Source of the DNA: Alkalibacter rhizosphaerae
GTDB lineage: Bacteria > Bacillota > Clostridia > Eubacteriales > Alkalibacteraceae
Reading direction: 5' to 3'
NCBI RefSeq assembly: GCF_017352215.1
Contig: NZ_CP071444.1
Coordinates: forward strand, 744,001 to 808,000
DNA length: 64,000 bases
The position numbers and the translations under genes were made by a program. This document shows, piece by piece, positions 43,504-44,149 of this stretch. Within the stretch, counting starts at the first letter, position 1; each line of letters opens with the position of its first letter. The notes under the pieces are model-generated. The model made no database searches, was not told the DNA's origin, and was given only the letters and a program-made list of their open reading frames with translations.

Positions 43504-43517
43504 TGTTAGCGCTAACA
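43504..43517. promoter_or_regulatory. LacI-type operator 1 (TGTTAGCGCTAACA)
   Basis: A perfect 14-bp palindrome with the central CG typical of LacI/GalR-family sites, 47 bp upstream of the YhcH start. Confidence 0.75.
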
Positions 43518-43570
43518 TTAAATCTTAAAAAAAATCAACGCAATTCATTTTATTAGGATCATAGCTAATT

Positions 43571-43582
43571 GTTAGCGCTAAC
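43571..43582. promoter_or_regulatory. LacI-type operator 2 (GTTAGCGCTAAC)
   Basis: The same core palindrome starts 67 bp from operator 1, allowing looping. The AT-rich DNA between holds the presumed promoter. Confidence 0.75.
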
Positions 43583-43661
43583 GTTATGTACCGATATTAT
43601 CATGTTAATATTGGTTCGTCAACCCTATAATGAAAATATTAACAATATTTTTGCCTTGATT

Positions 43662-43691
43662 TACGAAAAAGGCACGCGAAAGCGTGCCTTT
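43662..43691 (-). terminator. Terminator of the selenoprotein candidate
   Basis: On the minus strand aaaggcacgc-tttc-gcgtgccttt is followed by ttcgt. It overlaps the TAA stop at 43690-43692, marking the true 3' end of that gene. Confidence 0.8.
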
Positions 43692-43986
43692 ACTCTTTGA
43701 TTCCCCGTACCCAGAATCGCCTTCTCATCAATGGGAACTTCGGCCAAGCCCGTATGGTCAGCTTGCCTTTTGTTTTGACCCCTTTCATAACGTGAATGGT
43801 GATTCCTTCATGCTCATAGGCATCGTAATGAATATTGTATCGTTCTTCCGGTTTTACCGCCCCTGACCAGGGACGATTGACACATTGGCCGTTTCAGGTG
43901 GTACCAACGGAGATCACTTCAATGACAAAATGTCCGCCAAGCTCTTTGATCACTTCCAAAGTTTTTTCGCTGATATCAAATTTCAT
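43690..43986 (-). CDS. Small selenoprotein candidate (CC/Se motif family) with in-frame UGA
   Basis: A 98-residue frame with one internal TGA at 43894-43896 (codon 31). It starts MKFDISEKTLEVIKELGGHF; after the UGA it reads NGQCVNRPWSGAVKPEERYN and later EGITIHVMKGVKTKGKLTIR, ending RFWVRGIKE. Both sides form one plausible fold. They resemble, from memory, the 'CC/Se motif family (seleno)protein' group, in which Cys or Sec occupies this site. A Cys lies four residues after the UGA. A SECIS-like hairpin follows the UGA, and a terminator overlaps the final stop. The ribosome site (aggcggg) is weak. The function is unknown, possibly redox. Were UGA a true stop, only a 30-residue peptide would result. 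Confidence 0.72.
43856..43877 (-). promoter_or_regulatory. SECIS-like hairpin downstream of the in-frame UGA
   Basis: On the minus strand aucgucccu pairs with aggggcggu (9 bp, two wobble pairs) and closes a GGUC loop. The loop begins 25 nt after the UGA. Bacterial SECIS elements have a short stem and a G/U-bearing apical loop at this distance, as in fdhF. Confidence 0.65.
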
Positions 43987-44065
43987 GGTATTCCCGCCTT
44001 TCCATGCAAAATCTTTCGTTTTTGTATTAGAATATTAGCATATCATAATACAAAGGAGTCGTCCA

Positions 44066-44149
44066 ATGCAAACAGAAACCGCCGCTTACTTTATGGATCA
44101 TTTGATCGTAAATCCTAGGGACGGTTCTTTTGATTCTAACTGCTTTTAA
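44066..44149 (+). pseudogene. Truncated small ORF running into a RAYT repeat
   Basis: ATG follows aaaggagtcgtcca, and a possible promoter (ttgtat, 16 bp, cataat at 44022-44049) lies upstream. The frame reads MQTETAAYFMDHLIVNP, then RDGSFDSNCF, which is encoded by and after the 19-bp repeat at 44117-44135. A good start with an ending supplied by the repeat suggests that the 3' part of an older gene was lost. No family is recognisable from 17 residues. It is divergent from the selenoprotein candidate. Confidence 0.4.
44117..44135 (+). repeat. RAYT-type 19-bp repeat, direct orientation
   Basis: Exact agggacggttcttttgatt, just past the stop of the minus-strand HD-GYP gene and inside the truncated plus-strand ORF. 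Confidence 0.9.

Follow-up and report, generated by a model that had tools for sequence, protein, structure and literature searches.

A putative selenoprotein gene of Alkalibacter rhizosphaerae assigned to a divergent, selenocysteine-only clade of the NF041239 family with a predicted IscA-like fold

The first prediction of the NF041239 family was made in Moorella thermoacetica. It is a known selenoprotein family with the motif CxxU, and the HesB-like selenoproteins (TIGR01911) carry the motif UxGP, which is unlike the selenocysteine (Sec) motif of the clade described here (PMC13188914). The bSECIS model describes a hairpin with a loop of 3–9 nt, a stem of 4–16 bp and a G within the first two loop bases, the loop lying 16–37 nt after the UGA and the MFE being ≤ −7.5 kcal/mol (PMC13188914). 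We found members of the NF041239 family in 36 of 391 genomes of the class, with TGA at the aligned site in some and Cys in others. Several class-level loci (e.g., G155, G134, G022, and G109) gave NF041239 matches spanning two in-frame TGAs, which suggests that the family may also include double-Sec members.

The window analyzed here is a stretch of 64,000 nucleotides of the A. rhizosphaerae genome (contig NZ_CP071444.1, positions 744,001 to 808,000). A first-pass annotation had proposed a frame of 98 codons broken only by a UGA at codon 31, which is correct, although it left the strand unstated (Table 1). Judged from sequence and homologues, this is very probably a functional selenoprotein gene, and its product is best read as a divergent, Sec-only member of the known NF041239 family with an IscA-like fold. 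The proposed membership in the CC/Se motif family was borne out, with qualifications. NF041239 (“CC/Se motif family (seleno)protein”) is the only NCBIfam match of the window protein (E = 1.3e-6), but its 28.4 bits fall below the curated cut-off of 40 bits, and the paired-Cys motif is absent: the window protein has no CC or CxxU motif next to Sec, and no partner Cys is conserved in the six members of its clade.

Table 1. Features of the gene and its flanks, in window coordinates.
Feature	Position	Strand	Basis
Putative selenoprotein gene, 98 codons	43690..43986	minus	ATG start, TAA end, one in-frame TGA; NF041239 match; orthologue
ATG start codon	43986-43984	minus	sequence
UGA codon 31, presumably read as selenocysteine	43894..43896	minus	TGA at the aligned codon in 6/6 clade members; Sec/Cys there in the wider family
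Candidate bSECIS hairpin AUCGUCCCU-GGUC-AGGGGCGGU	43856..43877	minus	9-bp stem; fits bSECIS model; conserved
TAA stop codon	43692-43690	minus	sequence
GC-rich hairpin, 10 bp, overlapping TAA	43668..43691	minus	probable terminator
Shine-Dalgarno-like AAAGGCGGG 5' of ATG	43993..44001	minus	sequence; inference
34-bp dyad TTTGTATTAGAATAT-tagc-ATATCATAATACAAA over promoter-like site	44021..44054		possible operator, role inferred
Weak sigma-70-like promoter match TTTGCA-16-TATTAT	44045..44072	minus	consensus match only

The flanking elements are of uneven quality. The pattern scan returned 3 sigma-70-like matches against 2.1 expected, and the dyad over the promoter-like site has no obvious counterpart ahead of the gene in A. 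mobilis or Desulfosporosinus. The stop codon had been described as fused to a strong terminator; the GC-rich hairpin does overlap the TAA and is probably a terminator, and “strong” is plausible but not clean, as the U tail on the minus strand is short and the pattern scan scored this hairpin on the plus strand only. Two TGTTAGCGCTAACA-type palindromes (43504-43517 and about 43569-43584) lie upstream of a minus-strand gene set and are likely operators for a LacI- or GntR-type regulator; from their translations we take these genes to encode a YhcH/YjgK-like protein, a Gfo/Idh oxidoreductase, a malate/lactate-type dehydrogenase and a TRAP substrate-binding protein. The orthologue in A. mobilis (L064, 3950-4000) has a possible alternative start 16 codons upstream, an ATG behind GGAGG, which would give it a basic extension at the N terminus, MSKKKATYKRGAL, not present in the window gene.

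Across the six clade members NF041239 scores range from 24.5 to 41.2, and only L066 (41.2) passes the cut-off. Profile-profile comparison (hhalign) of the clade with the main family gave a probability of 97.9 and an E-value of 4.7e-13, and at the level of sequence profiles the two share common descent. In the tree, the six members form one group (support 100/99) on a long branch. The window protein resembles the family in length, in an alignment over residues 1–79 and in having Sec or Cys at the same site, whereas the adjacent or CxxU Cys partner is missing and the clade is Sec-only, no Cys form having been found at the Sec site among its members. Beside Sec the clade carries T-U-x-G or S-U-x-G (TTUNGQC in the window protein, YSUNG in relatives), within the signature [TS]-U-x-G-x(1,2)-[IV]-x-R-x-W-S. 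The HesB-like selenoproteins (TIGR01911) and IscA_HesB_Se (NF038090) are likewise small IscA/HesB-like selenoproteins, but of 34 members of the wider family only 2 and 4, respectively, gave stray weak matches to them, and at E ≤ 0.01 the six clade members gave none.

The AlphaFold model of the protein (mean pLDDT 92.6) predicts the fold of the A-type Fe-S carriers IscA and SufA. The top seven PDB matches in Foldseek are all of the SufA/IscA type, including E. coli SufA and IscA, with moderate TM scores of 0.43–0.57; Q-beta coat-protein matches in a PDB sequence search were judged to be chance. The window protein has no Pfam match, and 15 of 34 wider-family members have weak matches to PF01521. 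In a weak profile alignment, whose IscA sequence was confirmed against PDB entries 1s98 and 1r94, Sec31 aligns with Cys35 of IscA, the first cluster-ligand cysteine. The likeness to IscA/SufA/ErpA (PF01521) thus lies in the predicted fold and the position of Sec31, whereas the clade has one conserved chalcogen residue in place of three Cys ligands; IscA's C-terminal CxC is absent, as is any C-terminal cysteine. With no further Cys conserved across the clade and no CxC, the protein probably does not assemble a cluster as IscA does.

Two roles can be weighed for Sec31. The first, to which we give roughly an even chance, is that its lone selenolate serves as a ligand to a metal, a metalloid or a shared cluster, perhaps across a dimer. 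Ranked after it, and held more tentatively, is a role as a redox nucleophile. In the thiol-based oxidoreductase that this could imply, an assignment we rate as possible at somewhat less than even chance, Sec31 would pair with Cys35 of the same protein (UxxxC) or with an external thiol. In favor of this, most selenoproteins that still await characterisation are expected to act in redox chemistry (PMC13188914), both Alkalibacter proteins have Cys35, and L065 has UxxC. Against it, three of the four Desulfosporosinus-type members lack Cys35, and the predicted fold is IscA-like, not thioredoxin-like. Gene neighborhoods differ between Alkalibacter and Desulfosporosinus, and since they are not conserved, genomic context does not constrain the role.

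Relatives were found by an alignment scan of genome contigs, a single-sequence scan having given no match. The A. mobilis orthologue is 57% identical to the window protein and has TGA at the same codon. Four further, Desulfosporosinus-type members, one from G590 and three from loci in two MAG assemblies of Desulfosporosinus, also have TGA. Homologues thus align across the UGA: the nearest five share it in frame, which with the window gene makes six of six in the clade, and members of the wider family have Sec or Cys there. Weak order- and phylum-level matches (L053, L054, L060, L062, and L063) were rejected as unrelated proteins or fragments, and phage and plasmid records gave no match. Conservation beyond the UGA, as the first-pass annotation had proposed, is evident: 61% of the residues after it are identical in the A. 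mobilis orthologue, and third codon positions account for 32 of 60 substitutions there (p = 0.001). The identity together with this excess indicates purifying selection, at the protein level, on the part of the frame beyond the UGA. A pseudogene or chance read-through frame, in which a nonsense mutation truncated the gene and the downstream frame is a remnant, could account for a score below the family cut-off, but an identical TGA in six genes of Alkalibacter and Desulfosporosinus, the third-position excess and identity after the UGA, and the conserved hairpin make it very improbable; the conserved downstream frame in itself largely refutes it.

The first-pass annotation had named a lack of sel genes and of homologues aligning across the UGA as what would speak against a selenoprotein; neither lack was observed. 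All four sel genes, selA, selB, selC and selD, are present in the A. rhizosphaerae genome (2.45 Mb, one contig), with scores of 569 bits for selA, 350 for selB and 383 for selD, and a tRNA-Sec (selC) with a UCA anticodon; selA, selB and tRNA-Sec lie within 3.5 kb of one another, and selD is elsewhere. Among six genomes of the taxonomic family, the gene and an over-cut-off selA occur together in 2/2 and are both lacking in 4/4, a correlation over n = 6 genomes only. Among GrdA, GrdB and molybdopterin oxidoreductases, no other selenoprotein was identified in this genome: GrdA and GrdB gave no match, in a search unable to show absence, and neither of the two molybdopterin oxidoreductase matches contains a stop or TGA in its matched frame.

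The 9-bp stem with a GGUC loop that had been described after the UGA was found, slightly closer than the 18–25 nt given for its start: the stem begins 16 nt downstream of UGA31, and the loop begins 25 nt downstream of it. Two of the nine stem pairs are G-U, and the apical loop lies at 43868-43865. With its 4-nt GGUC loop, 9 bp, 25-nt spacing and −12.2 kcal/mol, the hairpin falls within the bSECIS model on all five counts. By itself this is modest evidence, because the window contains 2365 TGAs, of which 62 are followed by a SECIS-model hairpin at ≤ −7.5 kcal/mol and 14 by one as strong as that of UGA31. Among the 86 TGAs with at least 30 open codons before and at least 60 after, an equally strong hairpin occurs only at UGA31. 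Folding of a 61-nt stretch gave no signal (z = −0.36), compared with z = −3.5 for the 31-nt hairpin alone, and an Rfam scan of the region of the gene returned nothing credible.

The decisive evidence, on our reading of the alignments, is conservation in homologues. The GGUC hairpin is kept in all six clade genes, where the block CUGGUCAG is invariant and the loop lacks any change. In the six-gene alignment of the hairpin, 87.5% of cells are paired, compared with 25–65% for slid versions. Two stem pairs show compensatory changes on both sides (C-G/A-U and C-G/U-G/U-A exchanges); these mainly split the two lineages and therefore represent few events. In the Desulfosporosinus stems, an A·G mismatch separates an upper helix of 4 bp from a lower one of 3 bp, and on energy alone these stems are weak; the G590 hairpin reaches only −1.3 kcal/mol in a perfect-stem test; what argues for these hairpins is their conservation, not their energy. 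Among UGA members of the wider family, a SECIS-model hairpin is present in several and, in a simple scan, missing from several others; no Cys member has one at ≤ −7.5 kcal/mol. Two separate genes or non-Sec recoding (Trp suppression or read-through), with the hairpin acting in translation or stabilising the mRNA, would be less probable still than a pseudogene, given that wider-family members have Cys or UGA, not Trp, at the aligned site, that the full sel set is present and tracks the gene, and that hairpin spacing and loop fit the bSECIS model.

We therefore infer Sec insertion at UGA31. In the proposed mechanism, the GGUC-loop hairpin would recruit SelB with Sec-tRNA(UCA), and the complex would decode UGA31 as selenocysteine to yield a 98-residue protein of predicted IscA/SufA fold, with Sec31 placed in the loop where IscA carries its first cluster-ligand cysteine.

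The clade comprises six genes from two unrelated lineages and is mostly unreached by the curated NF041239 model. Pipelines that read UGA as a stop would truncate or lose such genes, and the window gene was likely overlooked by annotation because its NF041239 score lies below the cut-off. The NF041239 family itself is known, catalogued but uncharacterised. Members of the divergent Sec-only clade could form a distinct IscA-like subfamily that varies the A-type carrier scaffold by using one ligand: lacking the usual partner cysteines, a single selenolate would bind a metal or metalloid or do the chemistry, although we hold this proposal with somewhat less than even confidence. With no Cys form found among its members and no partner cysteine conserved, the clade is a clean system in which to ask what function a single Sec performs on a scaffold like that of IscA.
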